Shown here piece after piece: positions 17,446-40,151 of a stretch of 64,000 nucleotides of DNA. The position numbers and the translations under genes were made by a program. Where the stretch lies: contig JAFDWO010000087.1 in the NCBI GenBank assembly GCA_018268415.1, positions 1 to 64,000 on the forward strand, given 5' to 3'. Each line of letters opens with the position of its first letter. Positions within the stretch are counted from its first letter, which is position 1. The notes below the pieces were generated by a model. It was not told the origin of the DNA, ran no database searches, and worked only from the letters and a program-made list of their open reading frames with translations. This DNA is from Actinomycetota bacterium. GTDB lineage: Bacteria; Actinomycetota; Thermoleophilia; Solirubrobacterales; 70-9.

Positions 17446-17490
17446 TTGACATTCCGTCAAGCATCGGGTGTTCAAACGGCTCGCTTTGCC
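17446..17490 (+). promoter_or_regulatory. Regulon module copy 1
   Basis: TTGACATTCCGTCAA (17446-17460, a TTGAC/GTCAA dyad), a 21-nt spacer, then CGCTTTGCC (17482-17490). ACGATC follows at 17518, 12 bp before the ATG at 17530, with no Shine-Dalgarno sequence between. It precedes the VOC-cupin-cyclase-amidase operon. Confidence 0.8.
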
Positions 17491-17529
17491 TCTCACGCGA
17501 CCCGTGGTCCATCGGCAACGATCCTCGCC

Positions 17530-18075
17530 ATGCAGGAGATCGGACACGTGGCCTTCGGACAGCCGATCGACGGGATCATCCAGTTCGCGTACACGGTTGA
17601 GGACATCGAGCGGGCGATGCCGCTCTACGCGGACCTGCTCGGCGTCGGACCGTGGTTCAAACGCGGGCCGGTCGTCGCCGAGACCGCTCTCTATCGTGGC
17701 AAGCCGACCGAGCTGGAACTGACGCTCGCGCGCGGCTTCACCGGCCACTCGATGGTCGAGTTGATCCAGCAGCACAACGACGCGCCCTCCGTCTTTCTGG
17801 AGTCGATCTCTCGGGCCGGGTACGGCTTCCACCATTGGGGAGTCGGCGTCACCGACATCGATGCCTCCGTCGCCCGCTTCACCGCCTCCGGTTACGAGGT
17901 GGTGTTGTCCGATCGTCTCCCGACCGGCAGCGCGGTTCGTTACCTCGATACCACGAAAGACCTGGCCGGGATGATCGAGCTGATCGAGATGAACCCGGCG
18001 CAGGAGCGCCACTACACGAGCTTCCATGCGGCTTCGTTGGCCTGGGACGGGACCGATCCCGTGAGGATCGGTTGA
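17530..18075 (+). CDS. VOC (glyoxalase-fold) family protein
   Basis: A 181-residue vicinal-oxygen-chelate protein. The first beta-alpha-beta module starts at residue ~12 (IDGIIQFAYTVEDIERAMPLYADLLGVGPWF), and the second at ~95 (GFHHWGVGVTDIDASVARFTASGYEVV). It resembles methylmalonyl-CoA epimerase/glyoxalase-like VOC proteins acting on metal-bound small substrates; the His in FHHWG and Glu in IELIEMN are likely ligands. The longer open frame begins at 17446, inside the upstream regulatory motif, so ATG 17530 is chosen. It is the first gene of a four-gene unit with 4-nt overlaps downstream (TTGA into the cupin gene). Confidence 0.88.
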   Translation: MQEIGHVAFGQPIDGIIQFAYTVEDIERAMPLYADLLGVGPWFKRGPVVAETALYRGKPTELELTLARGFTGHSMVELIQQHNDAPSVFLESISRAGYGFHHWGVGVTDIDASVARFTASGYEVVLSDRLPTGSAVRYLDTTKDLAGMIELIEMNPAQERHYTSFHAASLAWDGTDPVRIG

Positions 18076-18410
18076 GCATCGGGACCCCCGCGAGCCCTCG
18101 CGTCCACACCGGCACGGTGGCGACCGAGAAGTTCGTTCCCCTCGGTGACGGCGCGATCAGCTGGCTTCGCCAGGACGGCGACGTGAAAGCCGGCACCTGT
18201 GTGTACACGCTGGCCGAGGCGGGCGGCCGTCACCCGATCGACTTCGGGATCAGCGAGACGCTGATCGTGCTCGAGGGCCGAATCAGGCTCGAGATGGAGG
18301 GTGGGCCGACGCTCGAGCTGGGCCCCGGCGAGTCGGCCTCCTTCGCGCGGGGAGCCCGCGGCGCCTGGAGCCTGGTCGAGGACACCAGGTTGTTCTTCGT
18401 CTCCACCTGA
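18072..18410 (+). CDS. Cupin-domain protein (EutQ/DUF861-like)
   Basis: A 112-residue single cupin starting at TTG 18072, overlapping the VOC stop in TTGA. Cupin motif 1 (HPIDFGISETLIVLEGRIRLEMEGG) and motif 2 (ELGPGESASFARGARGAWSLVED) are clear, and the first lacks the usual second His, as in EutQ-like DUF861 proteins. Such cupins bind small molecules or act as isomerases in catabolic operons. Its exact role in the pathway is unknown; tight overlap with its neighbours says it works in the same pathway. Confidence 0.85.
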   Translation: MSIGTPASPRVHTGTVATEKFVPLGDGAISWLRQDGDVKAGTCVYTLAEAGGRHPIDFGISETLIVLEGRIRLEMEGGPTLELGPGESASFARGARGAWSLVEDTRLFFVST

Positions 18411-18424
18411 ACGGGCACCTTGGG

Positions 18425-19387
18425 ATGAGCGCGAGCAGAGGTACGTACAGTCGGGAGGACTTCCGCCGGATCGCCGACGCGGTCCGCAATTGGGGCCGTT
18501 GGGGTGACGACGACCGGATCGGCACGCTGAACTACATCACCCCCGACCGGCTCGTCGCGGCGACCAGGTTGGTGAGGCGTGGCGTCTGCCTCGATCTCGG
18601 AATCCCGCTCGACGCGAACGGTCCCTATCCCGGTACCCACGGCCGTGCCAACCCGATCCACCTGATGACCGAGACCGGCGCCGACCAGGACCTCCCCGGC
18701 GGCCTCTGCGTAGCCGACGACTACATCATGATGCCGCTGCAGGGGGCCACCCAGTGGGACGGCCTCGCGCACGTCTTCTACGAGGGCAAGCTCTACAACG
18801 GCTTTCCCGCCGCCGACGTGACTCCACACGGCGCCAAGACCCTCGGCATCGAGCAGATCGGCAAGGGCGTGGCGGGCAGGGGGGTCCTGCTCGACGTCGC
18901 CCGCCACCAGGGCGTCGACTGGCTCGAGATGGGGGCGGTGATCACGCCCGACGATCTCGACGAGGTCGCCGCGGCCCAAGGGGTCGAGGTGGAGAGCGGG
19001 GACATCCTTTGCCTGCGCACCGGTTGGCGGCAGAAGTTCTTCGCCGACGGCGCCCACGCGTTCCTCGCCGGGGAGCCGGGCATCGGCATGGCGACGATCG
19101 AGTGGCTGCACGAGAAGGAGATCGCCGCGATCGCCTCCGACAACTGGGCGATCGAGGTGCTCAATCCCACCGATGACTTCTGGTGCGGCGAGATCGAGGG
19201 CATGGTCGACAACGTGCACATGATCCTGATCCGCGACATGGGCATGACGCTCGGCGAGATCTTCGACTTCGACGAGCTCGCTGCGGATTGTGTCGCGGAC
19301 GGCACCTGGGAGTTCTTCTTCTGCGGCCCACCGCTGAAGGTCACCGGCGGCGTCGGCACCCCGATCAATCCGCTCGCGATCAAGTGA
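18425..19387 (+). CDS. Cyclase-family (KynB-like) metal hydrolase
   Basis: A 320-residue member of the cyclase family (Cyclase, KynB-like fold), which includes kynurenine formamidases and isatin hydrolases. It belongs to the long subfamily beginning WGRWGDDDRIGTLNYITPDRL. The canonical HxGTHxDxPxH metal motif appears here as LQGATQWDGLAH near residue 110, so the first two His are replaced by Gln, a pattern I associate with this subfamily. Amide or lactam hydrolysis is the best guess. Its stop overlaps the amidase start (GTGA), so the two are co-translated and probably act in succession. Confidence 0.88.
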   Translation: MSASRGTYSREDFRRIADAVRNWGRWGDDDRIGTLNYITPDRLVAATRLVRRGVCLDLGIPLDANGPYPGTHGRANPIHLMTETGADQDLPGGLCVADDYIMMPLQGATQWDGLAHVFYEGKLYNGFPAADVTPHGAKTLGIEQIGKGVAGRGVLLDVARHQGVDWLEMGAVITPDDLDEVAAAQGVEVESGDILCLRTGWRQKFFADGAHAFLAGEPGIGMATIEWLHEKEIAAIASDNWAIEVLNPTDDFWCGEIEGMVDNVHMILIRDMGMTLGEIFDFDELAADCVADGTWEFFFCGPPLKVTGGVGTPINPLAIK

Positions 19388-20817
19388 CGCTCGCTCCCGA
19401 GGGGATCGCGGGGGCCGGCCACCGCGCGCTGCGGGACCTCGCTGCCGACGTCCGCGCCGGCCGCGTCTCGGCGCGAGAGCTGGTCGACGATGCTCTCGCG
19501 CGGATCGACCGCGACAACGGGACGCTCGTCGCCTTCGTCCACCTCGATCCCCAGGGCGCGCGTGAGGCCGCCGCGGCGATCGATCGCCTGGTCGCGGCCG
19601 GCGGGGATCCGGGACCGCTGGCGGGCATCCCGTTCGGCGTGAAGGATCTCCAGGACTGCGTCGGGATGCCGACCATCCGGGGCTCCCTGACGAACGCCGG
19701 CGCGGCCCCGGCCATCGCCGACGCGCCGATCGTCGCCCGGATGCGGGAAGCGGGTGGAATCCCGATCGGCAAGACGGCGGTGCCGGAGTTCGGCTTCGAC
19801 AGCGCGACCAAGAGCCGGCTCCACGGAACGACCCGTAACCCGTGGGACCTGGGCCGCTCCCCCGGCGGGAGCAGCGGTGGCGCAAGCGCGGCGGTGAGCG
19901 CGGGCCTGGTCCCGATCGCGACCGGGTCCGACGGCGGCGGTTCGATCCGCTCGCCCGCCGCCTGGTGCAATCTCGTCGGACACAAGCCTTCGCACGGCAT
20001 GATCGCCGACGCCGCCGCATCCGATTTCTCCGTCGCCGGCGTGCTCACCCACACCGTCCCCGACACCGCGATGGCCCTTGACGTCGTCGCCGGTCCGGAC
20101 CCGTTCGACCGGACCTCCCTGCCGCCGCGGTCCTGGGACCTGGGGCAGGCGATCGAGGGGCTCGACGTCGGCGGACTACGGGTCGCCTGGTCGACGGACA
20201 TGGGCTATGCGCCCGTCGACCCCGCCGTGGCGGAGCCGGCGCGAGGCACGGCGGAGGCGCTGATCGAGGCGGCCGGGCTGGTCGAGGTCGAGGCGCCGTT
20301 GCGTATCCCCAACGCGGTGATGACCCTGATCCGCCTCGCCGGGTTCACCCTGAAGGGCGAGCTCGAACTCGACGGGATCTACCCCGACCGGGCCGAGGAG
20401 CTGGCGCCCTTCACGCGCGAGGGCCTCCGATACGCGGCCCGGGGACCGCGGGAGCTGGCCGCGGCCCAGCGGGACCGACGCGAGATCGAACGGGCGGCGG
20501 CCGCGCTCTTCTCCCGGGTCGACGTGCTGATGACGCCGACCACCGCCTGCGCGCCGATCGCCGCCGACGCCGATCCACCGGCGGAGATCGCCGGGATGGA
20601 CGCCAGTGAATCCGGCGCCGAGCCGCTCACGATCCTGGCCAGCATGACTTGGCAGCCGGCGCTCTCGGTCCCCGCCGGGTTCACCCCGGAGGGGCTGCCG
20701 GTCGGACTGCAGATCATCACCAGGCGGTGGCGCGACGACGTTGCCCTCCGGCTCGGCCGGATCCTCGAAGACGTCCGCCCGTGGCGAGTCGACCCGGTGC
20801 CCGTGCCCGGATGCTGA
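19384..20817 (+). CDS. Amidase (amidase signature family)
   Basis: A 477-residue amidase-signature enzyme starting at GTG 19384. The Ser-cisSer-Lys triad is visible: Lys in LAGIPFGVKDLQD, cis-Ser in SPGGSSGGASAAVSAG, and nucleophile Ser in GSDGGGSIRSPAAWCN. It hydrolyses an amide in the cytosol; relatives include GatA, acetamidases and aryl-acylamidases, but no Gat partner genes are nearby, so a catabolic role is likely. It is the last gene of the VOC-cupin-cyclase-amidase unit and ends 5 bp from the convergent PucR gene. Confidence 0.92.
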   Translation: MTLAPEGIAGAGHRALRDLAADVRAGRVSARELVDDALARIDRDNGTLVAFVHLDPQGAREAAAAIDRLVAAGGDPGPLAGIPFGVKDLQDCVGMPTIRGSLTNAGAAPAIADAPIVARMREAGGIPIGKTAVPEFGFDSATKSRLHGTTRNPWDLGRSPGGSSGGASAAVSAGLVPIATGSDGGGSIRSPAAWCNLVGHKPSHGMIADAAASDFSVAGVLTHTVPDTAMALDVVAGPDPFDRTSLPPRSWDLGQAIEGLDVGGLRVAWSTDMGYAPVDPAVAEPARGTAEALIEAAGLVEVEAPLRIPNAVMTLIRLAGFTLKGELELDGIYPDRAEELAPFTREGLRYAARGPRELAAAQRDRREIERAAAALFSRVDVLMTPTTACAPIAADADPPAEIAGMDASESGAEPLTILASMTWQPALSVPAGFTPEGLPVGLQIITRRWRDDVALRLGRILEDVRPWRVDPVPVPGC

Positions 20818-20822
20818 GGCCG

Positions 20823-22469
20823 TCAGTGGTCGGTGCGGTCGAGATGGCGCTTCGCCCGCACCGCCAGGTGTAGGGAGAAGCGCGTTTCGCCATCGTCGAG
20901 GTCGACGCCGAGGGACTCTTCGATCCGGCGCAGGCGGTTGTAGAGGGTCTGCCGCTCGACGTGCAGGGCCCGTGCCGTCTGGACCTTGTGGCCGCCGTTC
21001 GCGCAGAAGGTCGCCAGGGTCTGAAGGAGGTCGCTTCGACCCTGGCGGTCGCGCTCGATCAGCGGCCGCAGCTGCTGGTCGACGAATTCGCGCAGCTCCG
21101 CCGTTTCGCGGAAGGCGAACAGGAGCCGGTCCGGTGAGGCCACCGAGACGTCGTGCCACGGGCAGGGATCGAGGTTGGCCGAGGCGGGGATCGCGTGCGC
21201 CGCCGCGCCGAGTTCGGCGGCGGCCTCGACCCAACCCGGGGAGGCGGCGGCGATGCAGATCGTCGGCTGACCGGTGATCCCGCGACGCGTGGCGGAGCGG
21301 GCGATCAGCAGCGCGACCTGGTCGCCCAGGCGCTCGCGGTCCCCTGCCCGCGCCAGGCCGAGGACCAGCAGGACGTTGCCGTTCTCGCCGGTGCCGGCGA
21401 GGACCGGTACGGCCTGTTGTTCGAGTTCGTCGACGAGATCGCGTCGGACGGCGGACCAACCCGAATCCTCACCGTCCGTTTCGGCCCGGCCGGGCGGCGC
21501 GATCACCAGCGGCAGCAGCACGCCGCCGTCGTGGGCGAAGCCGAGTTCGGCTGCTCCGGCGGCGATTTTCCGTTCCACCGACGGCGCCACGATCTTCTCC
21601 TCGCCGGAGTGGGAGTCGATCAGCCCGGCCAGGAAGTCACCGCGGCGGCGCGCCGTCAGCGCCTCCTCCTCCTGCCTGCGCATCAGAGCCAGCGCGATCA
21701 ACTCGACCGCCCGCTCCAGCGCCACCTGGTCCTGCGGCTCGAGCGGGCTGTCGACGGCCAGGGCGACCAGGCTTCCCCATGTGCCCGACTCGCCGGTCGG
21801 GACGGCGGCGGAGATCGCCGCCGGCGCCGCCACATCGCCGCGGGTGTACGAGCCCCACGCCCCGAGCACGGTGGCGTCGTCGGCCTCGAAGCAGGCGTGG
21901 TAGGCGATCCCCTGACCGGAGCGCTCGAGCACGACGGGGTTGCGGATGAAGCCGGAAAGCTCGACCAGAACGTCCGAGATGTGGGCGCCCCGCAGCATCA
22001 GCGAGATCAGGCGACTGCGCGACTCCTCGCCGCGCCTGATCAGCTCCCCGTCCCGGTCGATGATCGCCCGGTGGACGCTCTCGCTGATCTCGACGAAGCG
22101 GACCTCGCGGTGAAAGGCGATCAGGCAGAGCCCGTGTTCGTCGGCCGCTTCGACCAGCGGCTTGGGGACGGAGGTGAGCGCGGAACCGAGCTCGATCGCG
22201 AGCGCCGCGATGCGGCGGGCGGCGAGATCGGCGGCGAAGCGACGCTGGACCTCGCCGCTCGCCCCGATGTCGATGCCGGTGGTGACCAACAGCTCGCCGC
22301 CTTTCAGCAGGGAGGCGAGGTTCAGTCCCTCGCCGGCGTGCGTCCAGCGCACCTCGGTACCGAGGGCGGCCGCCCCGGCCAGGATCTCCGGCTCACCCCG
22401 GCGCAGGGGCGGGAGCGCCAGGGCATCGCGAACCGAAAAGGAGGTGTTCTTGGATTCGGTGATGGTCAT
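20823..22469 (-). CDS. PucR-family transcriptional regulator
   Basis: A 548-residue PucR-type regulator. The N-terminal PucR domain (SVRDALALPPLRRGEPEILAG...VRWTHAGEGLNLASLLKGGELLVTTG) covers ~10-130, a GGDEF-like or GAF-like middle part follows, and the C-terminal HTH_30 is at ~470-540 (LLQTLATFCANGGHKVQTARALHVERQTLYNRLRRIEESLGVDL). PucR proteins usually activate purine, amine or other N-compound catabolism when bound to an intermediate. It is convergent with the amidase gene and divergent from the SBP gene at 22627, whose promoter carries one of four copies of a shared module, so it is the best candidate controller of that regulon. Confidence 0.9.
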   Translation of the reverse strand: MTITESKNTSFSVRDALALPPLRRGEPEILAGAAALGTEVRWTHAGEGLNLASLLKGGELLVTTGIDIGASGEVQRRFAADLAARRIAALAIELGSALTSVPKPLVEAADEHGLCLIAFHREVRFVEISESVHRAIIDRDGELIRRGEESRSRLISLMLRGAHISDVLVELSGFIRNPVVLERSGQGIAYHACFEADDATVLGAWGSYTRGDVAAPAAISAAVPTGESGTWGSLVALAVDSPLEPQDQVALERAVELIALALMRRQEEEALTARRRGDFLAGLIDSHSGEEKIVAPSVERKIAAGAAELGFAHDGGVLLPLVIAPPGRAETDGEDSGWSAVRRDLVDELEQQAVPVLAGTGENGNVLLVLGLARAGDRERLGDQVALLIARSATRRGITGQPTICIAAASPGWVEAAAELGAAAHAIPASANLDPCPWHDVSVASPDRLLFAFRETAELREFVDQQLRPLIERDRQGRSDLLQTLATFCANGGHKVQTARALHVERQTLYNRLRRIEESLGVDLDDGETRFSLHLAVRAKRHLDRTDH

Positions 22470-22495
22470 CGGCTCCTTCGCTGACGGCTCCTGAC

Positions 22496-22540
22496 TTTAC
22501 ATTCCGTCAATGAAGAGCGAGCCGAAAGGCTCGCTTTGCC
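22496..22540 (+). promoter_or_regulatory. Regulon module copy 2
   Basis: TTTACATTCCGTCAA (22496-22510), 21 nt, CGCTTTGCC (22532-22540), with ACGATC at 22567. In this copy the spacer contains an 8-bp hairpin agcgagcc/ggctcgct with a GAAA loop. It sits in the 157-bp gap between the divergent PucR and SBP genes, 26 bp upstream of the PucR start, so it could also autoregulate PucR. Confidence 0.8.
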
Positions 22541-22626
22541 CCTCACTCGCTCGTACTCCATGGGCGACGATCCCCGCGATGAGCAGGCCGTCGTGTCGGG
22601 ACGGCACCGAATCGTGAGGAGAGTCG

Positions 22627-24204
22627 ATGGGGTCGAGGAGAACGTCGAACGTAAGGACCGTGTCCCTGCTGGTGTTGGTGGCGATCGCCTTCCTGGTCGC
22701 CGGCTGCGGTGGCGGTGGTGCGTCGAGCGGGGTCAACCGCACCACGGGCGACGAAGCGGCCACCGAACCAGAACACGGCGGGACCCTCTCGGTCTCGCTC
22801 GGTGAAGAAATCCTCTCGGTGAATCCGCTCAAGGCCTACTCGGCCGAAGACGTGAACGTCGTCTCGCAGATGTTCGAGACCCTGTTCAAAGAAGACTACG
22901 AAGGCAAGGTCGTCCCGTGGCTGCTCGAAAGCTACAAGTCGAGCAAGAACGACACGGTGTGGACGCTGCAATTAAAAAACGGAGTGGACTTCTCCACCGG
23001 TAAGCCGATGACCTCGGCCGACGTCAAGTGGTCTCTCGACCACGGCAGGGAAGTCGAAACCGTTGCGGGCGTGGTGGCGGGGTGGGAAAGCGTAGAGGCG
23101 ACCTCGCCGACCACCGTCGTGATCACCACCAAGCAGCCGAGCCCCGAAATGCCGGAGATCCTCTCCGCCTGGAGCTTCAGCGTGATGCCCGCGAACTGGG
23201 GCGGCGAGTCCGAGAAGCAGTTCGACGAGCATCCGATCGGCACCGGTCCGTTCGAGTTCGCCGGGCGGAAAAAGGGCGAATCGCTGACGTTGAGGAAGAA
23301 CCCCAACTACTGGGTGCCGCAACGGCCCTATCTCGACGAAGTCGTCTACCACACCGTGCAGAACCCCGAGAGCCGGACGGCCCAGATCCGCGGCGGCCAA
23401 CTCGACATGGCCTACGACCCGCCGTTCCCGGAACTCGAATCGCTCGAACAGAGTCCCGAACTGGCGGTGGAAGCGCCCTACCTCGGCGTCGGCTGGCTGA
23501 TGATCCTCAACACCGAAAACCCCCTGTTCGAAAACAAGAAGGCGCGAGAAGCGGTCAACATCGCCCTCGATCGCGAGTCGATGGTCGAACTGTCACTCCA
23601 CGGGCACGGCGAACCGATGAACGCGTATCTGCTGCCCTGGATCCCTGGCTACGACAAGAGCCTGGTGGCGGCCGAACACAACCCCGAAAAGGCGAAGAAA
23701 CTTCTCGCCGAAGCGGTCCAGGAAGGGGTGAAGCCGACGTTCACGATCTCCTCGATGTCCGAAGACCCGTTCTGGACCCAGGCATCGCAGATCGCGCAGG
23801 CGAACCTCGAAGAAGTCGGCTTCACCGTGACGATCAAGAAGTCCGACCTCAGCAGTCTGCTCGGCCAGCTGGAAAGCCGGGAATTCGACGCGACCACGAT
23901 CTACAACACGGCGCTGTCGCCCTACCCCGCCGAATTGTTCTCGTTCTACAACGCGACCGGCGGCTTCTTCACCGGCGTGGACACCAAGCGAACCGAAGCG
24001 CTGATGGCGGCCGCGCAGAGCGAGACGAACACCGCGAAGCGCAATGCGATGTGGGGCCAGATACAACGGATCATCAACGAAGAACAGGCACTGATCCTGG
24101 TCGCCTATTCACCGTACGTCTGGGTCAGGCAGAGCGATGTGACCGGGTCGTTCGTCGGCAGGACCGGCATCCTCTGGCTCGGAGAAACCGGGTTCGCGAG
24201 CTAG
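22627..24204 (+). CDS. ABC transporter substrate-binding lipoprotein (family 5)
   Basis: A 525-residue peptide/nickel-type SBP (SBP_bac_5). Residues 1-27 are a lipoprotein signal with lipobox LVAGC (C27), then a Gly/Ser linker. The conserved SBP_5 entry (GGTLSVSLGEEILSVNPLKAYSAEDVNVVSQMFETLF) and the VKWSLD and GTGPF motifs are present. It is closely similar along its length to the SBPs at 28552 and 40152 (shared blocks QEGVKPTFTISS, PFWTQ, IAQANLEEVGFTVTIKKSDL). No permease follows it; it probably feeds the transporter encoded at 30188-33880. Glu is almost always GAA. Confidence 0.93.
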   Translation: MGSRRTSNVRTVSLLVLVAIAFLVAGCGGGGASSGVNRTTGDEAATEPEHGGTLSVSLGEEILSVNPLKAYSAEDVNVVSQMFETLFKEDYEGKVVPWLLESYKSSKNDTVWTLQLKNGVDFSTGKPMTSADVKWSLDHGREVETVAGVVAGWESVEATSPTTVVITTKQPSPEMPEILSAWSFSVMPANWGGESEKQFDEHPIGTGPFEFAGRKKGESLTLRKNPNYWVPQRPYLDEVVYHTVQNPESRTAQIRGGQLDMAYDPPFPELESLEQSPELAVEAPYLGVGWLMILNTENPLFENKKAREAVNIALDRESMVELSLHGHGEPMNAYLLPWIPGYDKSLVAAEHNPEKAKKLLAEAVQEGVKPTFTISSMSEDPFWTQASQIAQANLEEVGFTVTIKKSDLSSLLGQLESREFDATTIYNTALSPYPAELFSFYNATGGFFTGVDTKRTEALMAAAQSETNTAKRNAMWGQIQRIINEEQALILVAYSPYVWVRQSDVTGSFVGRTGILWLGETGFAS

Positions 24205-24232
24205 GTCAGCCACCGCCACGGCCGGTACGACG

Positions 24233-25291: not shown

Positions 25292-25325
25292 AGACCCGGG
25301 TTGACATTCTGTAAACCCGGGTCTT
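25291..25325. terminator. 12-bp-stem hairpin overlapping regulon module copy 3
   Basis: aagacccgggtt (25291-25302) is the exact reverse complement of 25314-25325. The 11-nt loop holds most of the operator TTGACATTCTGTAAA (25301-25315). It starts at the last base of the upstream stop codon, so it can both end the SBP-PTE transcript and present the operator for the next unit. Confidence 0.7.
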
Positions 25326-25345
25326 GCCAAAACCCCCGCTTTGCC
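25301..25345 (+). promoter_or_regulatory. Regulon module copy 3
   Basis: TTGACATTCTGTAAA (25301-25315, two mismatches in the right half), 21 nt, CGCTTTGCC (25337-25345), ACGATG at 25373, and ATG at 25385. Distances match copy 1. It heads the longest unit, from the GcvP-like genes probably through to 40023. Confidence 0.8.
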
Positions 25346-25384
25346 TCTTATGTCGCCGGGGTCGCATCGAGAACGATGCGAGCC

Positions 25385-26812
25385 ATGAGCAAGACGATTG
25401 GGACCGCGACCGTGACCGGCGCGCATCCGTTCATGGCCAACTCGACCCCGGAGGCGAAGGAGCGCATGCTCGAGGCCACCGGCTTCGACAGCATCGACGA
25501 CCTTTTCGCCCAGATCCCGGCGGACCACCGCCTCACCGGCCGACTCGGTCTGCCCGCCGGCGGCCGCTCGGAGGCCGCCGTCCGCCGGCGTCTCCTCGAC
25601 GCCCTCGCCAAGAACGAGACCTGCGAGGAGAACCTCAGCTTCATCGGCGGGGGTTGTTGGCAGCACTACGTCCCGGCGGTGTGCGACGAGATCGTCTCGC
25701 GCACCGAGTTCGTCACCTCCCACCTCGGCACCCCGGCCTCCGATTACGGCCGATTCCACGTCTGGTTCGAGTTCGCGAGCCAGCTCGGCGAGCTGCTCGA
25801 CCTCGACTTCGTCGGCCTCCCGGTCTACAGCTACGGCTGCGCGGCCGGTCACGCGATCCGCATGGCGGCGAGGCTCACCGACCGCAACCAGGTTCTGCTG
25901 CCGGCCTGCATCGACCCGGAACGTCTGGCGGTCATCCGCAATTACTGTGAGCCGCCGGAGATGGAAGGCCACATCGAGATCGTCACCGTCGAGTTCGATC
26001 GTGAGACCGGTGAGATCGACCTTCGCGACCTGGAGGAGAAGCTCTCCGAGCGGACCGCGGCCGTCTACTTCGAGAACCCGAGCTACCTCGGCACGATCGA
26101 GAGCGCCGGGGCGGCCATCGGCGCCGCCGCGCGGGCCGTCGGCGCCGAGACGATCGTCGGCGTCGACCCGATCTCGCTGGGCGTGCTGGCTCCCCCCGGC
26201 CGCTACGGGGCGGACATCGTCGTCGGCACCCTGCAGACGCTCGGCGTCCACATGAACTGCGGTGGGGGGGTCGGCGGCTTCATCGCCAGCCGCGACGAAG
26301 AGCGGTACGCCTACGAGTACCCGACGATCGCGATCACCGCCTGCGAGACGACCGAGCCGGGGGAGTTGGCCTTCGCCCCGACCCTGGTCGAGCAGACCTC
26401 GGCGATGACGCGCGAAGGCGCCAAAGACTGGTACGGGAACAACTCGGTTCGCCTCTGGACGGTCGCGAACGCCGTCTACATGTCCCTGCTCGGTCCGCGC
26501 GGCTTTGCCGAGATCGGCGAGTCGATCGTGCGCCGCGGCAGCTACGCCGCCGGTCGGATCGGCGAATTGCCAGGCGTCGAGATCCGACCCGGGGGCGCGT
26601 TCTTCAAGGACTTCGTCGTCGATTTCGAGGGCACCGGGAGGACCGTGGACGAGATCAACGCGGGCCTCCGCGAGCGGGCGATCTTCGGTGGGCGAAGCCT
26701 CTCTTCGACCTTCCCCGAGCTCGGCCAGAGCGCCCTCTACGCGGTCACCGAGATCCACACGATCGAGGACATCGATCGACTGGTGGACGGGCTGACCGAG
26801 GTGACCCGATGA
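25385..26812 (+). CDS. GcvP-alpha-like PLP-fold protein
   Basis: A 475-residue homologue of glycine decarboxylase subunit 1 (GcvPA). The family signature ATGFDSIDDLFAQIPADHRL at the N-terminus, NLSFIGGGCWQHYVPAVCDEI, the ALEAAGAA-like central part and TLQTLGVHMNCGGGVGGF are clear. GcvPA pairs with GcvPB to make a PLP-dependent decarboxylase; the PLP Lys is in the partner. The open frame starts upstream at 25301 inside the operator, so ATG 25385 is used. No GcvH or GcvT gene is in the window, so a decarboxylase or other PLP enzyme for a different amino compound is likely. ATGA overlap with the next gene. Confidence 0.88.
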   Translation: MSKTIGTATVTGAHPFMANSTPEAKERMLEATGFDSIDDLFAQIPADHRLTGRLGLPAGGRSEAAVRRRLLDALAKNETCEENLSFIGGGCWQHYVPAVCDEIVSRTEFVTSHLGTPASDYGRFHVWFEFASQLGELLDLDFVGLPVYSYGCAAGHAIRMAARLTDRNQVLLPACIDPERLAVIRNYCEPPEMEGHIEIVTVEFDRETGEIDLRDLEEKLSERTAAVYFENPSYLGTIESAGAAIGAAARAVGAETIVGVDPISLGVLAPPGRYGADIVVGTLQTLGVHMNCGGGVGGFIASRDEERYAYEYPTIAITACETTEPGELAFAPTLVEQTSAMTREGAKDWYGNNSVRLWTVANAVYMSLLGPRGFAEIGESIVRRGSYAAGRIGELPGVEIRPGGAFFKDFVVDFEGTGRTVDEINAGLRERAIFGGRSLSSTFPELGQSALYAVTEIHTIEDIDRLVDGLTEVTR

Positions 26813-28380: not shown

Positions 28381-28453
28381 AGAGCGAAGAGCACCGTCAG
28401 CAACCCCGGCGCTGATCGACCGCTCCTTGGGAAGAGCGTGACATCGAAAGACA

Positions 28454-28524
28454 CCAGGCAGCACCTGGGGCTCCAATCCGCGGTTCTCCCGGTGAGAACC
28501 GACGGCGATCATGAACCACCGTCG
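28454..28524 (+). promoter_or_regulatory. Three consecutive hairpins in the SBP leader
   Basis: ccagg/cctgg (28454-28458, 28464-28468), cggttctc/gagaaccg (28481-28488, 28494-28501, loop ccggt) and cgacgg/ccgtcg (28500-28505, 28519-28524). The last two share two bases, so they compete. They lie in the 171-bp gap before the SBP gene, whose RBS aggagg is at 28541-28546. A role in mRNA processing or attenuation is possible; no known riboswitch is recognised. Confidence 0.45.
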
Positions 28525-28551
28525 AGTCCGTATGCAATCAGGAGGAGAGAG

Positions 28552-30159: not shown

Positions 30160-30187
30160 CCGGAGAAGGAAGCAGAGAGTCGTACCG

Positions 30188-33880: not shown

Positions 33881-33890
33881 AGGGGCCGAG

Positions 33891-34649
33891 GTGCGGATCG
33901 ACGGTTCGGTAGTCATCGTCTTCGGCGGCGCCTCCGGGCTCGGCGAGGCGACGGCGCGCGGGCTGGCGGCCGGCGGCGCCACGGTCGTGGTCGCCGATCT
34001 GGCGGCGGACCGGGCGGCGGCGGTGGCCGACGAGATCGGCGGCTCCTGGGCCGAGGTCGACGTCTCCGACCCGGGCTCGGTCGAGGCGGCGGTCGCCGCG
34101 GCGACCGAGCTCGGCGCCCTGCGGATCGTCGTCAACACCGCCGGCATCGCGACCCCGAACAGCTTGATCGGCAGGGAGGGGCCGACCCCGCTCGCGGCGT
34201 TCGCCAGGGTGATCGACGTCAACCTCCTGGGCACGATCAACGTGCTGCGGTGCGCCGCCGCGGCGATGGCGCTGGGCGCGCCGGCCGAGGACGGTGAGCG
34301 CGGCGTCTGCGTGAACAGCGCTTCGATCACGGCCTTCGACGGTCCGCTCGGCATGGTCGCCTACTCGGCCTCGAAGGCGGGAGTCGTCGGGTTGACGCTG
34401 CCGTCCGCCCGGGAGCTCGCCCGGCACGCCATCCGCGTCGTCACCGTCGCCCCCGGCGTCTTCGACACGCCGATGGTCGCCGGCCTGCCCGCGGGGACCG
34501 GCGATGCGCTGGCCCGGAGCGTTCCCTATCCACGGCGACCCGGCACCCCGGAGGAGTTCGCGGCGTTGGTGGAGCAGATCGTGGTCAACCCGATGCTGAA
34601 CGGCGAGACGATCCGCCTGGACGGCGCCCTGCGGATGGGCACCGCCTAG
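33891..34649 (+). CDS. SDR oxidoreductase, HSD10-like
   Basis: A 252-residue short-chain dehydrogenase from GTG 33891. The nucleotide-binding GGASGLGEA motif (a variant of TGxxxGIG) is near 11-19, DL near 37 suggests NAD preference, the structural NTAG appears, and the catalytic Ser-Tyr-Lys is in NSASITAFDGPLGMVAYSASKAG. The pattern of insertions (TPNSLIGREGPTPLAAFARVIDVNLLGTINVLRCAAAAM) matches type-II 3-hydroxyacyl-CoA dehydrogenases (HSD17B10-like). It probably oxidises a hydroxyacyl-CoA or alcohol intermediate of the pathway. Confidence 0.9.
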   Translation: MRIDGSVVIVFGGASGLGEATARGLAAGGATVVVADLAADRAAAVADEIGGSWAEVDVSDPGSVEAAVAAATELGALRIVVNTAGIATPNSLIGREGPTPLAAFARVIDVNLLGTINVLRCAAAAMALGAPAEDGERGVCVNSASITAFDGPLGMVAYSASKAGVVGLTLPSARELARHAIRVVTVAPGVFDTPMVAGLPAGTGDALARSVPYPRRPGTPEEFAALVEQIVVNPMLNGETIRLDGALRMGTA

Positions 34650-34665
34650 GGACGGTGGCCTACCG

Positions 34666-35496
34666 ATGGGTCTGTTGGAGGGCAAGGCGGCGATCGTCAC
34701 CGGCTCGGGGCGAGGGATCGGGCGGGCGACCGCCGAGCTCTTCGCCGCCGAGGGGGCGAAGGTGATGATCAACGGGGTCGATCCCGTCGTCGCCGCGGCG
34801 ACCGCGACCGAGATCGACGGCGAGACCGCCGTCTTCGGTGGAGACCTGACGAAGCCGGGCGCCGCCGACGAACTCGTGGCCGCGGCCGTCGAGGCCTTCG
34901 GGTCGGTCGACATCGTCGTCAACAACGCCGGCTACCCATGGGACGGCGTCGCCCACAAGATGAGCGACGAGCAGTTCCAGGCGATGCTTGACATCCACAC
35001 CGTCGTCCCGTTCCGGGTGGCGCGGGCGCTTGCGCCCCACTGGCGGGCCGGCGCTAAGCGGGAGCGCGAGGAAGGCGTCGAGGCCTTTCGCAAGCTGATC
35101 AACGTCTCCTCGACGACGGGGGCCATGGGCAACCCCGGCATGGTCAACTATGCGGCCGGCAAGGCGGGGGTCATCGGCGTCACCAAGACCCTGGCCAAGG
35201 AGTGGGGCCAGTTCAAGATCAACGTCAACGCGCTCGCCTTCGGCTACGTGGAGACCCGCCTCACCGCCGCGAAGGAGGAGGCCGGTGAGATCCTCGCGCC
35301 GACCGGCGAGAGGATCGCGCTCGGCATCCCCGCGAGACTGCGCGGGGTTGCCGCGGCGGTCATCCCGCTCGGCCGCCCGGCCACCGCGCGCGAGGCCGCG
35401 GGCCCGGTTCTCTTCCTCGCCTCGCCGCTCGCCGATTACGTGCATGGCCAGGTGCTGAACGTCAGCGGCGGGATGCCCGGAGGGCTCTACGCATGA
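34666..35496 (+). CDS. SDR oxidoreductase, FabG-like
   Basis: A 276-residue SDR. TGSGRGIGRA is near 13-22, NNAGYPWDGVAHK gives the NNAG motif, and the catalytic residues are in NVSSTTGAMGNPGMVNYAAGKAGV (Ser, Tyr, Lys). An insert after the NNAG helix (LAPHWRAGAKREREEGVEAFRK) is typical of one subgroup of 3-oxoacyl reductase-like SDRs. It follows the previous SDR gene by 16 bp, so both belong to the same unit. The specific substrate is unknown. Confidence 0.9.
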   Translation: MGLLEGKAAIVTGSGRGIGRATAELFAAEGAKVMINGVDPVVAAATATEIDGETAVFGGDLTKPGAADELVAAAVEAFGSVDIVVNNAGYPWDGVAHKMSDEQFQAMLDIHTVVPFRVARALAPHWRAGAKREREEGVEAFRKLINVSSTTGAMGNPGMVNYAAGKAGVIGVTKTLAKEWGQFKINVNALAFGYVETRLTAAKEEAGEILAPTGERIALGIPARLRGVAAAVIPLGRPATAREAAGPVLFLASPLADYVHGQVLNVSGGMPGGLYA

Positions 35497-35512
35497 GGGC
35501 GGGGCGACGCTG

Positions 35513-37720
35513 ATGCTGACCGGATACACCGACACCTTCAGCGTCGAACCGGGCAGCGCGATCAAGTTCATGGTCAGCAGCTCGGTCGGGCCGTACGAGG
35601 CATCGTTGGTGCGCCTGATCCACGGCGACCGAAACCCGGCCGGCCCCGGCTTCAGGCAGCAGGAGCTGCGGACCGCCATCGACGGCACCTATGAAGGCGC
35701 CATGCAGGACACCAGGCCCGGGTCCTACGGGCGCGTGGACGGCATCTCGGTTCCGACGCCGGCGTTCAGCCTCAGCGCCTGGATCTACCCGACGACGATC
35801 GATTGGCGGCAGCCCCAGTGCGTGCTCTCCCTCGATGGAGAGGAGGGAGCCGGGGTCGCGCTGGAGATCCGCGCGGGGCGCCTTTGCCTCTGCGCGGGCG
35901 AGGGACAGGCGATCGCCCTGGAGTCGGACCTCATGGACAGGACCTGGTACTTCGTCTACGCGGGGGTCGACGACGACGGTTCGGCCGAGGTCGAAGCCCG
36001 GAGCGTCGCCTGGCCCACCTTTCATGGATCCGGGTCGGGCCGGTTCGCAGCCCCGTCCGCGGCGGGCGAGCTTCACCTGTCGGTGGCCGCCGCGCGATCC
36101 CCGGGCGGCTCGTCGGCGCGGAGCTTCTACAACGGCAAGATCGCGGAGCCCCGCCTCTACCGACGGGTCCTGGCGGAGTCCGAGCGCGGGGATCTCGCCG
36201 GTGCGGCTTCCGGCCTGGAGGTCGGCGCGGATGCGTTGGTCGGCGCCTGGAACCTGTCCTCCGATCCGGGCCGTGCGGAGTTCGTCGATCGGCTCGGCCG
36301 CGGCCCCGCCGGTGAGTTGGTGAACCAACCGGCCGCGGCGATGACCGATCACTCCTGGCGGGACGAGCAGGATTGGCGCTGCGCCCCCGACCGGTTCCGC
36401 GCCGTCCACTTTCACGCCGACGACCTCGTCGACGCGGGTTGGTCTCCAGGCTTCTCGTGGGAGGTCCCGGGCGACCTCCCGAGTGGGGTCTACGCCGCGC
36501 GGCTACGGGCCGGTGGGGAGGAGGACCACATCCCGTTCTTCGTCCGGCCACGCCGCGGCGCGCCGACCGCCGAGGTCGGGGTGCTGATGCCGACGTTCAC
36601 CTACCTGGCCTACGCGAACGAGCGCGTCCGCCGGTCGAAAGAGGGATTCGAGGAGCTGAAGAACTTCGCCGGCGACTTCTCCGATCCGCGCGAGGAGGAG
36701 TGGGCAGAGTTCCCCGAGTTCGGGATCTCGCTCTACGACACCCACGCCGACGGATCGGGATGCTGTTACGCGAGCGCACGACGGCCGATCCTGAACATCA
36801 GGCCCGACTACCGCATGTGGTCGACCGGCGCGCCCCGGGGTCTGGGGGCGGATCTCCACCTGATCGACTGGCTGACCGAGAAGGGCCATCGGCACGACAC
36901 CTTCACCGACGGCGACCTGCACGATGAGGGCCTCGAGCTCCTCCGCGGCTACCGGGTGGTGATCACCGGCTCGCACCCCGAGTACTGGAGCGCCCAGATG
37001 CTCGACGCGCTGCGGGCCTACCTCGACTCCGGCGGGCGGGTGATGTACCTGGGTGGCAACGGGTTCTACTGGGTGACCAGCGTCGCCGCCGAGGCACCGC
37101 ACCTGATCGAGGTCCGACGGGGATACGCCGGGACCCGGGTCTGGGAGTCGGAGCCCGGCGAGTATCACCACAGCACCACGGGTGAGCGGGGCGGGCTCTG
37201 GCGCTTCCGCGGCCGTAGTCCGAACGCCCTGGTGGGGATCGGCTTCGCCGCCGAGGGTGTCTCCCCGCCCTCGCCCGGTTATCGGCGCAGGGACCGGACG
37301 AGCGCGATCGCCGGAGTGATCTTCGACGGTGTCGACGAGGACCCCTTCGGGACCTACGGCCTGATCATGGACGGCGCGGCGGGAGACGAGATCGACCGCG
37401 CCGATGCCCGCCTCGGGACTCCTCGGCACACCTTGGTGCTCGCCTCCTCGACCGGACACGACGACAAGTACCAGCTCGTCTGCGAGGACATCCTCGTCAC
37501 CGCTCCCGGGCTCGGGGGGAGGGAGAACCCGGACGTTCGGTCCGACATCACGTTCACCGAGACGGCAAACGACGGCGCCGTGTTCGCGGCGGGGGCGATC
37601 ACCTGGTGCGGCAGCCTGTCCCACAACGGTTATGACAACGCCGTCTCGCGGATCACCGAGAACGTCCTCGAGGCCTTCCTGACAAGAACCTCGTGGCCCG
37701 ACGCCGTCCGCTCGACGTGA
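35513..37720 (+). CDS. N,N-dimethylformamidase large-subunit-like hydrolase
   Basis: A 735-residue protein. The N-terminal half holds a LamG/concanavalin-like domain (~70-220: FSLSAWIYPTTIDWRQPQCVLSLDGEEGAGVALEI...FYNGKIAEPRLYRR). The C-terminal half (~350-730) is the dimethylformamidase beta-subunit domain: VLMPTFTYLAYANER, WSTGAPRGLGADLHLIDWL, GYRVVITGSHPEYWS, GGRVMYLGGNGFYWV, ESEPGEYHHS. Characterised DMFase hydrolyses formamides with an iron held by Tyr and Glu; the YHH and E residues here are candidates. No recognisable small-subunit gene follows. It may act on an amide larger than DMF, fitting the amidase/cyclase-rich regulon. Confidence 0.85.
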   Translation: MLTGYTDTFSVEPGSAIKFMVSSSVGPYEASLVRLIHGDRNPAGPGFRQQELRTAIDGTYEGAMQDTRPGSYGRVDGISVPTPAFSLSAWIYPTTIDWRQPQCVLSLDGEEGAGVALEIRAGRLCLCAGEGQAIALESDLMDRTWYFVYAGVDDDGSAEVEARSVAWPTFHGSGSGRFAAPSAAGELHLSVAAARSPGGSSARSFYNGKIAEPRLYRRVLAESERGDLAGAASGLEVGADALVGAWNLSSDPGRAEFVDRLGRGPAGELVNQPAAAMTDHSWRDEQDWRCAPDRFRAVHFHADDLVDAGWSPGFSWEVPGDLPSGVYAARLRAGGEEDHIPFFVRPRRGAPTAEVGVLMPTFTYLAYANERVRRSKEGFEELKNFAGDFSDPREEEWAEFPEFGISLYDTHADGSGCCYASARRPILNIRPDYRMWSTGAPRGLGADLHLIDWLTEKGHRHDTFTDGDLHDEGLELLRGYRVVITGSHPEYWSAQMLDALRAYLDSGGRVMYLGGNGFYWVTSVAAEAPHLIEVRRGYAGTRVWESEPGEYHHSTTGERGGLWRFRGRSPNALVGIGFAAEGVSPPSPGYRRRDRTSAIAGVIFDGVDEDPFGTYGLIMDGAAGDEIDRADARLGTPRHTLVLASSTGHDDKYQLVCEDILVTAPGLGGRENPDVRSDITFTETANDGAVFAAGAITWCGSLSHNGYDNAVSRITENVLEAFLTRTSWPDAVRST

Positions 37721-37771
37721 GGTTCCGAGTCCCGACCTTGCCGATGGCCGAAACGAACCGAAAGGAAGCCG

Positions 37772-38191
37772 ATGTATAAGACGGTCTGGTTGCTTCGCCG
37801 TAACCCCGCGATGACGCGGGAGGAGTTCGTCGAGTACTACGAGACGAAGCACTCGAAGCTGGTCGGGCACTTCGACGGCGTGGTGAAGTACTTTCGGCGT
37901 TACCCGGAGGAGGGGAAGAGCCTCGCCGAGCGCTCCACGCCGGGTGGGGTCGACTTCGACGTGGTGATGGAGCTCTGGTTCGAGTCGCGTGAGGCATTCG
38001 ACGCGGCGCACGAGCGCGGCGGCGCCGATGCGGATTTCTGGCGGGAGGCCGCCGAAGACGAGAGGCGGCTCTTCGACGTCGATTCCGCGGGGTGGCAGAC
38101 GAAGATCACGATCGAGGTCGAGCACGAGACCGACCTCTCCTCGCCGACACTGGAGACCACCTACGAGCGCGGGGTGACCTCGTGGAGCTAG
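37772..38191 (+). CDS. EthD-domain protein
   Basis: A 139-residue ferredoxin-like (dimeric alpha-beta barrel) protein of the EthD family. YKTVWLLRRNPAMTREEFVEYYETKHSKLVGHF is the EthD signature (His in the TKHSKL stretch), followed by VVKYFRRYP and VVMELWFESREAFDAAHE. EthD proteins accompany degradation operons for ethers, polyketides or steroids; their reactions are mostly unknown. Preceded by a gaaagga RBS. Its last ten bases overlap the next SDR gene. Confidence 0.88.
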   Translation: MYKTVWLLRRNPAMTREEFVEYYETKHSKLVGHFDGVVKYFRRYPEEGKSLAERSTPGGVDFDVVMELWFESREAFDAAHERGGADADFWREAAEDERRLFDVDSAGWQTKITIEVEHETDLSSPTLETTYERGVTSWS

Positions 38192-38910
38192 AGGGCAAGC
38201 AAGCGCTGGTCACCGGGGCCGGGGCGACCGGCGGGATCGGGTTCGAGATCGCCCGTCGGTTCATCGACGAGGGCGCCGTGGTCCTGATCACGGGACGCGA
38301 CCCCTCGCGCGGTGCCGAGGCGGCTGCGGCCTTGGGCGATCGCGCGACCTTCCTGCTCGCGGACCTGGTCGAGCTCGAGGCGCTCGCCCGCCTCGTCGAT
38401 GCCGCCGGCGAGGTGGACATCCTGGTCAACAACGCAACCGCGATCGGCCGCGGAAACGTTGTCGACCGCAACATCGCCGGGCTCGACGAAGTTCACTTCA
38501 CGAACGTCCGCGCGCCCTACGTCCTCACCGCCGGGCTCGCCCCCGGGATGGTGTCCCGGCAGTCGGGCTGCGTGGTCAACATCAGTTCGTTGGTGGCCGG
38601 ACGCGGTACCCCGGGGATGGGCAGCTACGCGGCCTCGAAAGCCGCGCTCGAGTCCCTCACGCAGACGTGGGCCGCGGAGCTGGGTGGAAGCGGGGTCCGT
38701 GTGAATGCGGTGGCGCCCGGCCCGATCAGAAGCGCCAAGAACCTGACCGAACATCAGGACGAGTTGGAGGAGTTCGGAAAGGTGACTCCCCTGCGGAGGA
38801 CCGGGGCAACCGCCGAGATCGCCGAGGTCGTCGCCTTCCTGGCAAGCGACCGTTCCAGTTACGTCACCGGCACCGTGATCCCGGTCGACGGCGGCTCGCG
38901 GGCAATCTGA
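38182..38910 (+). CDS. SDR oxidoreductase
   Basis: A 242-residue SDR from GTG 38182, overlapping the EthD gene by 10 nt. TGAGATGGIGFE gives the cofactor motif (with a two-residue insertion typical of enoyl-reductase-like SDRs), NNAT is the NNAG variant, and catalytic Ser/Tyr/Lys are in NISSLVAGRGTPGMGSYAASKAA. It ends with the usual SSYVTGTVIPVDGGSRAI. It is directly followed by the phosphotriesterase-like gene with no gap (stop 38908-38910, ATG 38911). Confidence 0.9.
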   Translation: MELEGKQALVTGAGATGGIGFEIARRFIDEGAVVLITGRDPSRGAEAAAALGDRATFLLADLVELEALARLVDAAGEVDILVNNATAIGRGNVVDRNIAGLDEVHFTNVRAPYVLTAGLAPGMVSRQSGCVVNISSLVAGRGTPGMGSYAASKAALESLTQTWAAELGGSGVRVNAVAPGPIRSAKNLTEHQDELEEFGKVTPLRRTGATAEIAEVVAFLASDRSSYVTGTVIPVDGGSRAI

Positions 38911-40023
38911 ATGGCGGATCCGGCGCAGGACGGTTGCCGCCCGCCGAGCGTGATGACCGTGCTCGGGCCGGTCGAGCCTCCCGCGCTCGGCTACACGCAG
39001 ACGCACGAGCACGTCCTGGCAGATCTCTCGGGCGTTCTCGGCTCGAGTCAGATGACGGATGGGGTGTACGCGGCGGACACGGCACCGGCCGCGCTCGACG
39101 TCGAGTTCCCGGCCTCGGTGCGTCGCCGCATGCACGAGCCGATCCGGCCGGACAACTATGACTGGATCCGGCGCCACGTGACGAACATCGACAACCTTCG
39201 CCTCTGGGACGAGGAGGAGGCGATCGAGGAGTTGGGCCACTACGCGGTCGCAGGCGGGGCGTCGCTGGTGGAGTCCACCTCGATCGGGCTCGGCCGCGAT
39301 GCCGCGGGCCTGGCGCGCGTCTCCCGCGCCTCGGGCGTCAACGTGATCATGGGTTGCGGCTTCTACTGTCGACCCCTGGGCCTGGATCGGGTGCCCCGCG
39401 AGGCGATCCGCGACCTCATCCTCAAGGACCTCCAGGTGGGCGTCCGCGACACCGGCATCCGCGCCGGGATCATCGGTGAGATCGGGCTCAGCGACCCGAT
39501 CCTCCCGACCGAGGCGAAGGTCCTGGAGGCCGCCTGCGAAGCGCAGAAGAGCTCGGGCGCCGCGCTCCAGATCCACCCCGGGCGCAGCCCCGAGTCGTTG
39601 TTCGAGGCGGTCGAGAAGATCCTCGCCGCCCGCGTCGACCCGGGCAGGCTCGTGATGTGTCACCTCGACCGGACGCTGACGAGCCCCGCCGATCTCGAGC
39701 GCCTGGCGCGGACGGGCTGCTACCTCGAGTTCGACCTGTTCGGGCAGGAGAGCAGCTACTACCCGTGGAGCGACATCGATCGTCCGAATGACGCGACCCG
39801 CATCGATTGGCTCGGAGGGCTTGCCGAGCAGGGCTTCGGCGACCGCCTCGTGATCTCCCAGGACATCTGCATGCGGGCGTACTTCCGCAAGTACGGCGGG
39901 CCGGGGTACTCGCACATCCTCGAAAACGTCCTGCCGCTGATGAGAAAGAAGGGGTGGGACGCAGCCGATATTCAACGTGTGACCGTCGATAACCCGGCGG
40001 CCCTGTTGAAGAACGCGTGGTGA
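38911..40023 (+). CDS. Phosphotriesterase-family metal hydrolase (2)
   Basis: A 370-residue PTE-family TIM barrel, paralogous to 24233-25291. HxH is in YTQTHEHVLADL (H32, H34), Glu bridging residue in GIIGEIGLSD, metal His in LQIHPGR and MCHLDR, and Asp in VISQDICM. The shared GVRDTGIRAGIIGEIG and C-terminal GYxH...TVDNPAxL blocks show the two paralogues have a common ancestor. Two such hydrolases in one regulon suggest two lactone/ester/amide steps or two related substrates. It is the last gene before regulon module copy 4. Confidence 0.9.
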   Translation: MADPAQDGCRPPSVMTVLGPVEPPALGYTQTHEHVLADLSGVLGSSQMTDGVYAADTAPAALDVEFPASVRRRMHEPIRPDNYDWIRRHVTNIDNLRLWDEEEAIEELGHYAVAGGASLVESTSIGLGRDAAGLARVSRASGVNVIMGCGFYCRPLGLDRVPREAIRDLILKDLQVGVRDTGIRAGIIGEIGLSDPILPTEAKVLEAACEAQKSSGAALQIHPGRSPESLFEAVEKILAARVDPGRLVMCHLDRTLTSPADLERLARTGCYLEFDLFGQESSYYPWSDIDRPNDATRIDWLGGLAEQGFGDRLVISQDICMRAYFRKYGGPGYSHILENVLPLMRKKGWDAADIQRVTVDNPAALLKNAW

Positions 40024-40039
40024 AGGTACCGCCGTCGAG

Positions 40040-40084
40040 TTGACATTCCGTCAAGGGTCGGCGCGACAAAAGACGCGCTTTGCC
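40040..40084 (+). promoter_or_regulatory. Regulon module copy 4
   Basis: TTGACATTCCGTCAA (40040-40054, identical to copy 1), 21 nt, CGCTTTGCC (40076-40084), ACGATC at 40112. It lies 16 bp after the upstream stop codon and precedes the SBP-ligase-thiolase unit. Confidence 0.8.
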
Positions 40085-40151
40085 CCTCCCGCACCCTTCA
40101 CCTCTTCGAGGACGATCTCTGTCACGGGAACCGAGGAAGAGAGGATCCACT

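Follow-up and report, generated by a model that had tools for sequence, protein, structure and literature searches.

Four matched promoters in a Solirubrobacterales catabolic gene cluster form a predicted PucR-type regulon

Introduction

What is the function of a sequence module that recurs four times, with fixed internal spacing, in front of catabolic and transport genes? We addressed this question in a 64,000-nt stretch of DNA (the window) on contig JAFDWO010000087.1 of assembly GCA_018268415.1, from a Solirubrobacterales genome that we call G000. Each copy of the module has a distal dyad (the consensus we used is TTKAC-n5-GTMAA), a proximal box (CGCTTTGCC), and a hexamer, RACGAT. We found that the four copies make up a real set of matched promoters that, as read from the DNA, form a PucR-type regulon. 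Each copy probably works as a whole promoter that depends on an activator, and together they would make up one small regulon under the PucR protein encoded beside the second copy. We did not find this regulon in the literature searched; the mechanism that we propose is a variant close to known PucR-type activation.

Results and discussion

Four intergenic copies with rigid spacing

All four copies are intergenic and on the + strand. Site 1 has its dyad at 17446..17460 (TTGAC-ATTCC-GTCAA, TTGACATTCCGTCAA), its box at 17482..17490, and its hexamer, AACGAT, at 17517..17522. At site 2, which is between pucR and the divergent gene SBP1, the dyad is at 22496..22510 (TTTAC-ATTCC-GTCAA, TTTACATTCCGTCAA), the box at 22532..22540, and GACGAT at 22566..22571. 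Site 3 consists of a dyad at 25301..25315 (TTGAC-ATTCT-GTAAA, TTGACATTCTGTAAA), a box at 25337..25345, and AACGAT at 25372..25377. The dyad of site 4, at 40040..40054, is the same as that of site 1 (TTGAC-ATTCC-GTCAA, TTGACATTCCGTCAA) and is followed by a box at 40076..40084 and by GACGAT at 40111..40116.

A first-pass annotation of this DNA claimed a fixed spacing of 21 nt, and the spacing is exact: the box starts at offset 36 from the start of the dyad in 4/4 copies. It also placed ACGATS at 17518, 22567, 25373, and 40112, and the motif is at each of these positions; its distance from the box is 27 nt, or 26 nt in the copy at 22496. Measured from the start of the dyad, RACGAT is at offset 71 in three copies and at offset 70 in the copy at 22496.

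We compared these counts to two controls. A search for the dyad with up to 3 mismatches gave 4 matches in the window. In contrast, 100 dinucleotide shuffles gave a mean of 0.49 and a maximum of 2; that is, none had 4. A search for the dyad, 21 nt of any sequence, and the box, with up to 6 mismatches in all, again gave 4 matches in the window. Of 20 first-order Markov resamplings, 19 had none and one had a single match. Based on these two controls, chance is excluded as the source of the four copies. Across the whole genome (4.74 Mb in 160 contigs), ACATTCYGT-N20to35-CGCTTTGCC had 4 matches, all in the window and on the + strand, compared to 0 in the control. A random or mainly intragenic distribution, which had been set beforehand as the finding that would count against a regulon, was therefore not what we observed.

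The four copies are alike where the elements are and different elsewhere. Identity among them was 0.90 in the dyad, 1.00 in the box, and 0.89 in the hexamer, compared to 0.45 in the spacer and ~0.5 in the remainder. This difference bears on the notion that the copies are alike simply from recent duplication and have no function. The cluster does contain paralogues, namely SBP1, SBP2, and SBP3 (family-5 solute-binding proteins) and PTE1 and PTE2 (phosphotriesterase-like proteins), as duplication would predict. However, duplication alone does not readily account for spacers that are 45% identical and hexamer flanks that are ~50% identical beside elements that are 89-100% identical, and the genes behind two of the four sites (the glyoxalase gene and gcvPA) are no paralogues of these proteins. 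We consider duplication without function highly improbable.

Copies in a related genome

The exact module was present in just two of 101 genomes searched, G000 itself and G011 (Solirubrobacterales bacterium 70-9; Thermoleophilia, Actinomycetota). G011 is in the same genus as G000 and is one of 11 genomes of that genus in our set. Outside of this pair we found little: of 399 genomes of the class (G011 excluded), 13 contributed a total of 14 matches outside the window, each with 3 mismatches, compared to 9 in the control, a number that is near chance.

The cluster is syntenic in G011 (contig MKSH01000056.1, G011:C56). The cyclase, amidase, PucR, SBP1, PTE1, and GcvPB are 81-92% identical in protein sequence over nearly their whole length (91% for PucR), and the glyoxalase is 90% identical. 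Three copies of the module could be read in G011, at places that match those in the window: before gcvPA, between pucR and SBP1, and between PTE2 and SBP3. The third, which is before SBP3 on another contig (G011:C57), has diverged slightly; it has GTCCA in the dyad (1 mismatch) and CGCTTTGCG as its box. At the start of the G011 glyoxalase gene, AACGAT, 6 nt, and ATG are retained, and the sequence further upstream is a run of N.

In the seven copies from the two genomes, the box is at offset 36 in 7/7 and the hexamer is at offset 71 in 6/7 and at offset 70 in one. Invariant over all seven are 11 of the 15 dyad columns, CGCTTTGC in the box, the C-T that follows it, ACGAT, and isolated columns at 28, 30, 35, 67, 69, 85, and 87. 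The spacer contains three of these columns: 28 (C), 30 (A), and 35 (C). The claim that spacers are unconserved thus goes somewhat too far, although spacer identity among the window copies is just 0.45. In addition, spacers of matching G000 and G011 copies are fairly alike (18, 15, and 12 of 21 positions, compared to 15, 13, and 13 of 15 in the dyads). Because of this likeness, the comparison of these two genomes by itself separates the elements only weakly.

Similar dyads occur a few more times in the two genomes. G000 has two others at 2 mismatches. In G011, a dyad on contig G011:C91 (TTGACATTCCATCAA, 1 mismatch) has no box and looks like part of an ordinary -35/-10 promoter of another gene. 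At this locus (L055, G011:C91:4833), the near-palindrome TTTGACATTCCATCAAA can also be read as a -35, with TAGACT 18 nt further on, and it precedes an open reading frame (ORF) that we read by eye as a putative luciferase-like monooxygenase (LLM)-type flavin oxidoreductase.

A predicted -10 without a -35 and predicted leaderless starts

Where would transcription start? In Mycobacterium smegmatis, ANNNT is found at -13 to -6 in 79% of promoters and 24% of transcripts are leaderless, and earlier mycobacterial studies, as cited in the same report, found no SigA -35 consensus (PMC6448022). In 5/7 copies of the module, exactly 7 nt separate RACGAT from an ATG; both SBP3 copies have ACG at that place. 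That is, ACGAT is at -12 to -8 relative to the A of ATG in 5/7 copies, as expected for ANNNT promoters of leaderless transcripts (in two of these five the ATG opens a short leader ORF). Because RACGAT conforms to ANNNT and is spaced in this way from an ATG, fitting the M. smegmatis pattern, it is likely an ANNNT-type -10. We set +1 at offset 84 from the start of the dyad; the predicted positions are then -84 to -70 for the dyad and -48 to -40 for the box.

The ATG 7 nt past RACGAT is, by reading frame, the start of the glyoxalase gene (17530..18075, +) and of gcvPA (25385..26812, +), so two of the four genes are probably leaderless. In front of SBP1 (22627..24204, +), the ATG at the predicted +1 opens a 12-codon ORF (22579..22617, +) with a TGA that overlaps the Shine-Dalgarno sequence of SBP1. 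G011 also has this ORF, encoding a different peptide, and its stop overlaps the Shine-Dalgarno sequence in the same way. It is possible that the ORF couples translation of SBP1 to a leaderless start. In front of SBP3 (40152..41741, +) the predicted +1 is at 40124, in the ACG, and in both genomes a Shine-Dalgarno-like stretch and a later start are found downstream. The putative start in the window is a TTG at 40152 that matches the GTG of the G011 copy.

This arrangement bears on an earlier proposal that TTGCCY is an unusual -35 contacted by RNA polymerase. The placement of TTGCCY is rigid in all copies, which speaks for this proposal. However, the box ends 26 nt (25 nt in the copy at 22496) upstream of RACGAT, which behaves as a -10; the distance between TTTGCC and RACGAT is 25-26 nt instead of the usual 17, and if the -10 were at another position, there would be no explanation for RACGAT or for its fixed distance from ATG. 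We regard this proposal as very unlikely. The rigid phasing is better read as the geometry of activator sites relative to the -10; PucR loci in mycobacteria (below) are rigid in a similar way.

We also considered a structured RNA in the 5' leader, like a riboswitch, with the dyad as a hairpin and the spacer as a second stem. The copies at 22496 and 25301 do fold better than shuffled sequences (z of -2.31 and -4.64). The copies at 17446 and 40040 do not (z of 0.05 and 0.13), the strong hairpins are broken in G011, and the consensus fold of the seven copies has 7 pairs, 0 of them compensatory, at -1.5 kcal/mol. A search of Rfam at gathering thresholds found just a tRNA in the window, and between 17000 and 40500 nothing overlapped a site at E values up to 5. 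On these grounds (hairpins lost in G011, 0/7 compensatory pairs, no Rfam match at the sites) we rejected a leader RNA, and consider it extremely improbable.

PucR as the candidate regulator

The gene at 20823..22469 (-), next to site 2 in both G000 and G011, encodes the proposed activator, a PucR-family protein that matches PF07905 at 105 bits (cut-off 33.5) and HTH_30 (PF13556) at 77.2 bits (cut-off 27). It has no match to GGDEF_2 at E values up to 0.001, whereas the Mycolicibacterium protein has one. According to PMC7652997, a GGDEF-like middle domain is present in about half of the PucR family members; it is not required for membership. The best NCBIfam match is PmfR (NF045769) at 61.9 bits, far below the cut-off of 800 bits, so the window protein is not its equivalog. 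We found no paper with a PmfR operator in the literature searched, and four short motif strings and paper titles searched there gave no report of the module motif.

Three observations indicate that this protein is the likely regulator, as the first-pass annotation had suggested: site 2 adjoins pucR, a paralogue has a similar dyad next to it, and PucR loci in mycobacteria share the geometry. The paralogue (G000:C11, 52% identical) has TTGTCATAGCGTCAA (TTGTC-ATAGC-GTCAA), which differs from the dyad by 1 mismatch and begins 82 nt upstream of the ATG of a divergent gene, by our reading an aldehyde dehydrogenase. An ANNNT hexamer is at +70 from the start of this dyad.

We analyzed the region above pucR in 25 mycobacterial loci from 24 of 60 sampled genomes, one of which had two loci. 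The genomes are from the genus of locus L045 and include its own, Mycolicibacterium sp. P9-64; the start of the dyad was set one base further on for L074 and L085. These pucR genes are beside a dehydrogenase-like gene and, like the module, have a dyad at the start of pucR and an ANNNT -10 ~70 nt downstream. TTKAC-n5-GTMAA was found with at most 1 mismatch in 15/25 loci, compared to a mean of 0.18 and a maximum of 3 in Markov-resampled sequence, and with at most 2 in 24/25. An ANNNT -10 at +69 (A and T at +70 and +74) was present in 24/25; other offsets from 55 to 94 fit 0 to 4 loci. In 16/25 an ATG or GTG lies within 5-8 nt past the hexamer, although we read the ATG in L057 and L069 as not being the gene start. 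Between dyad and -10 is a looser element, TKACA-n4-YG, at +31, with A, C, and G at +34, +35, and +41 in 25/25. A Prescottella locus (L048) and a Mycobacterium locus (L046) have the elements at the same offsets. The 25 loci differ from the module in their TKACA-type second element at +31, in a dyad core that is mostly ANAGT instead of ATTCY, and in a -10 at +69 instead of +71.

The dyad abuts the start codon of pucR in most of these mycobacterial loci (L064-L087 and L057), and the minus strand reads like TACACT, 6 nt, and ATG. It is possible that the dyad itself serves there as the -10 of a leaderless pucR.

Several observations weigh against assigning the module to PucR. The mycobacterial loci are related by descent, so that 24/25 does not represent 24 independent events, and dyads such as TTKAC-n5-GTMAA are common. 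We also looked at 16 other PucR homologues (33-45% identical to the window protein), in a region that began 20 nt inside the start of the match and extended to 230 nt above it. The dyad was absent from all 16 at up to 2 mismatches; with 3 mismatches it was found in 7, and the other 9 lacked it. These 16 are nearer in sequence to the window PucR than are the mycobacterial proteins (27-29%, six checked). Ten of the 16 are from one genus, which we take to be Streptomyces, and their targets may be elsewhere in their genomes. A PucR locus from another Solirubrobacterales genome (L043, 51% identical) has, by eye, CCGAC-ACTCC-GTCAC with CAGACT at +70, a weak likeness at 3 mismatches, and by eye we saw no dyad at a Nitriliruptoraceae locus (L044, 32%).

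Could the module instead serve a different transcription factor, from elsewhere in the genome, as its operator and promoter, with pucR merely among the targets? The lack of a dyad at the 16 closer homologues fits this, as does a proximal box with no counterpart seen at other PucR loci. However, a similar dyad and -10 geometry recurs beside PucR genes of other lineages, and no other helix-turn-helix regulator was among the Pfam and NCBIfam matches listed for 53 distinct ORFs of the window (from 180 ORFs of at least 120 aa), a survey that left out genes outside the window and ORFs shorter than 120 aa. The only other regulator-like protein among those matches was an IrrE-like peptidase (2324-3607). 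Control by another factor therefore seems unlikely to us. We also tried, and rejected, a LysR-type promoter with regulatory and activation binding sites (RBS/ABS): the matches listed for the 53 ORFs contained no LysR protein, and HTH_1 scored below its cut-off on PucR (19.6 compared to 26.6). Recognition helices look alike in all 19 rows compared, and the protein sequence therefore leaves the question of PucR and the dyad unsettled. The recurring geometry beside other PucR genes supports PucR as the candidate. We also retain the earlier reading of the dyad as a predicted activator-type operator.

A model for activation, and comparison to known systems

We suggest that PucR, responding to a presumed ligand, would occupy the TTKAC-n5-GTMAA dyad (centre near -77) as an oligomer, with a further contact to the CGCTTTGCC box between -48 and -40. 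It would thereby recruit polymerase containing sigma-A to a promoter with a weak RACGAT (ANNNT) -10 and without a recognizable -35. The glyoxalase gene, GcvPA, and the short leader ORF before SBP1 would each be transcribed from the A of the ATG; the SBP3 transcript would have a leader, beginning upstream of the Shine-Dalgarno sequence. PucR may also limit its own expression, because the site 2 dyad overlaps TAAAGT (22494..22499, -), a possible -10 of pucR that is present in G011 too.

The closest known system is GabR of Corynebacterium glutamicum, a PucR-type activator that is an octamer and is encoded divergently from gabTDP (PMC7652997). The region bound by GabR, -87 to -23, contains two inverted repeats, and strong binding needs both (PMC7652997). 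By anatomy, site 2 looks like this system: a PucR-type regulator is divergent from a catabolic or transport operon, a site overlaps a possible promoter of the regulator, and activation (predicted for the module) involves two upstream sites just above the -35 region, the box being a putative site in the module. At their predicted positions, dyad and box fall within the span of GabR. The differences are that GabR is described as a local regulator that uses two similar 21-bp inverted repeats, whereas the module is at four promoters and its second element has a different sequence. In addition, the gabT promoter has a predicted -35 and a 36-nt leader; we saw no -35 in the module, and two of its four genes are apparently leaderless.

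Against a model with PucR alone, the box is not an inverted repeat or a second dyad, unlike the repeats of GabR. It is possible that PucR binds the dyad while a second protein binds the box, so that the module integrates two signals; apart from the box, this is the model above. The box is identical in 4/4 copies in the window, and CGCTTTGC is found in 7/7, yet it does not resemble the dyad, as expected if another protein reads it. On the other hand, the box lies inside the stretch bound by GabR as given in PMC7652997 (-87 to -23) and near the position of the second mycobacterial element, and a weak GNCRA pattern resembling the GTMAA half-site precedes it in 6/7 copies. We think a second protein rather improbable. 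We do not claim the reading of the proximal element as an everted half-site, for which there is the weak GNCRA pattern only.

Other members of the family vary in their sites. PucR, PutR, and AdeR of Bacillus subtilis regulate the catabolism of purines, proline, and alanine; the sites of PutR and AdeR are inverted repeats, and PucR both activates and represses from a site that is not palindromic (PMC7652997). The proximal element also differs by lineage, with TKACA at +31 in mycobacteria and CGCTTTGCC at +36 in the window. It is possible, and we propose this tentatively, that one branch of PucR-type activators in Actinomycetota shares a single geometry: a dyad ~70 nt above an ANNNT -10, a second element between them, no -35, and often a leaderless gene. 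In Solirubrobacterales, the proximal site would have been replaced by CGCTTTGCC, to be read by a second DNA-binding surface or by a second protein. If this is true, then geometry was conserved while the proximal sequence was rewritten, and PucR regulons could be predicted from sequence. The rule that it suggests (dyad, second element, and a -10 at +69 to +71) is a testable way to seek PucR targets in actinobacterial genomes. Because the -10 marks leaderless starts, the rule would also help in checking start codons.

Genes of the predicted regulon and their surroundings

The first-pass annotation noted that all four copies precede catabolic or transport units, and the genes behind the sites support such a regulon, which would be small. 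The four sites precede a glyoxalase-fold gene (Pfam Glyoxalase_4), the family-5 (oligopeptide/nickel type) solute-binding protein SBP1, the glycine dehydrogenase subunit GcvPA, and the family-5 solute-binding protein SBP3. The GcvPA in the window seems to be an accessory copy, because the other GcvPA-like match in the genome is only 34% identical to it. Interspersed with these genes and following them are those for a cyclase-like protein, an amidase, PucR, PTE1, PTE2, and GcvPB. Transporters of the peptide type, short-chain dehydrogenases, a dimethylformamidase-like protein, a CoA ligase, and a thiolase are encoded there as well. The model would thus link to one regulator a poorly understood catabolic cluster that combines accessory glycine decarboxylase subunits, phosphotriesterase-like and dimethylformamidase-like proteins, and peptide-type transporters. 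We could make no convincing assignment of the substrate of the pathway, and a tie to compounds that release amides or glycine would be guesswork.

Some other features of the window are worth recording. A 735-aa protein encoded at 35513-37720 (+) has a C-terminal domain like the dimethylformamidase large subunit and a lectin-like domain, and its place in the gene order is kept in G011. Adjoining the cluster, at 44923-46653 (-), is a match to the MACPF (perforin-like) domain (31.7 bits; cut-off 21.5). The window has three "putative cyclase" (PF04199) genes, at 18425-19387, 56914-57714, and 62399-63250.

A tRNA-Arg(ACG) gene at 2141-2214 is followed by a phage-type integrase gene at 4150-5799 and, ~9.2 kb beyond the tRNA, by a 22-nt copy of the tRNA-Arg anticodon region (CGGTCTACGAAACCGAAGGTCA) at 11354-11375. 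Taken together, these look like an integrative element at a tRNA gene. In G011, a tRNA-Ser gene is near the glyoxalase end of the cluster, beyond the run of N. Because it is tRNA-Ser there and tRNA-Arg in the window, the catabolic cluster may be at different genomic places in G000 and G011.

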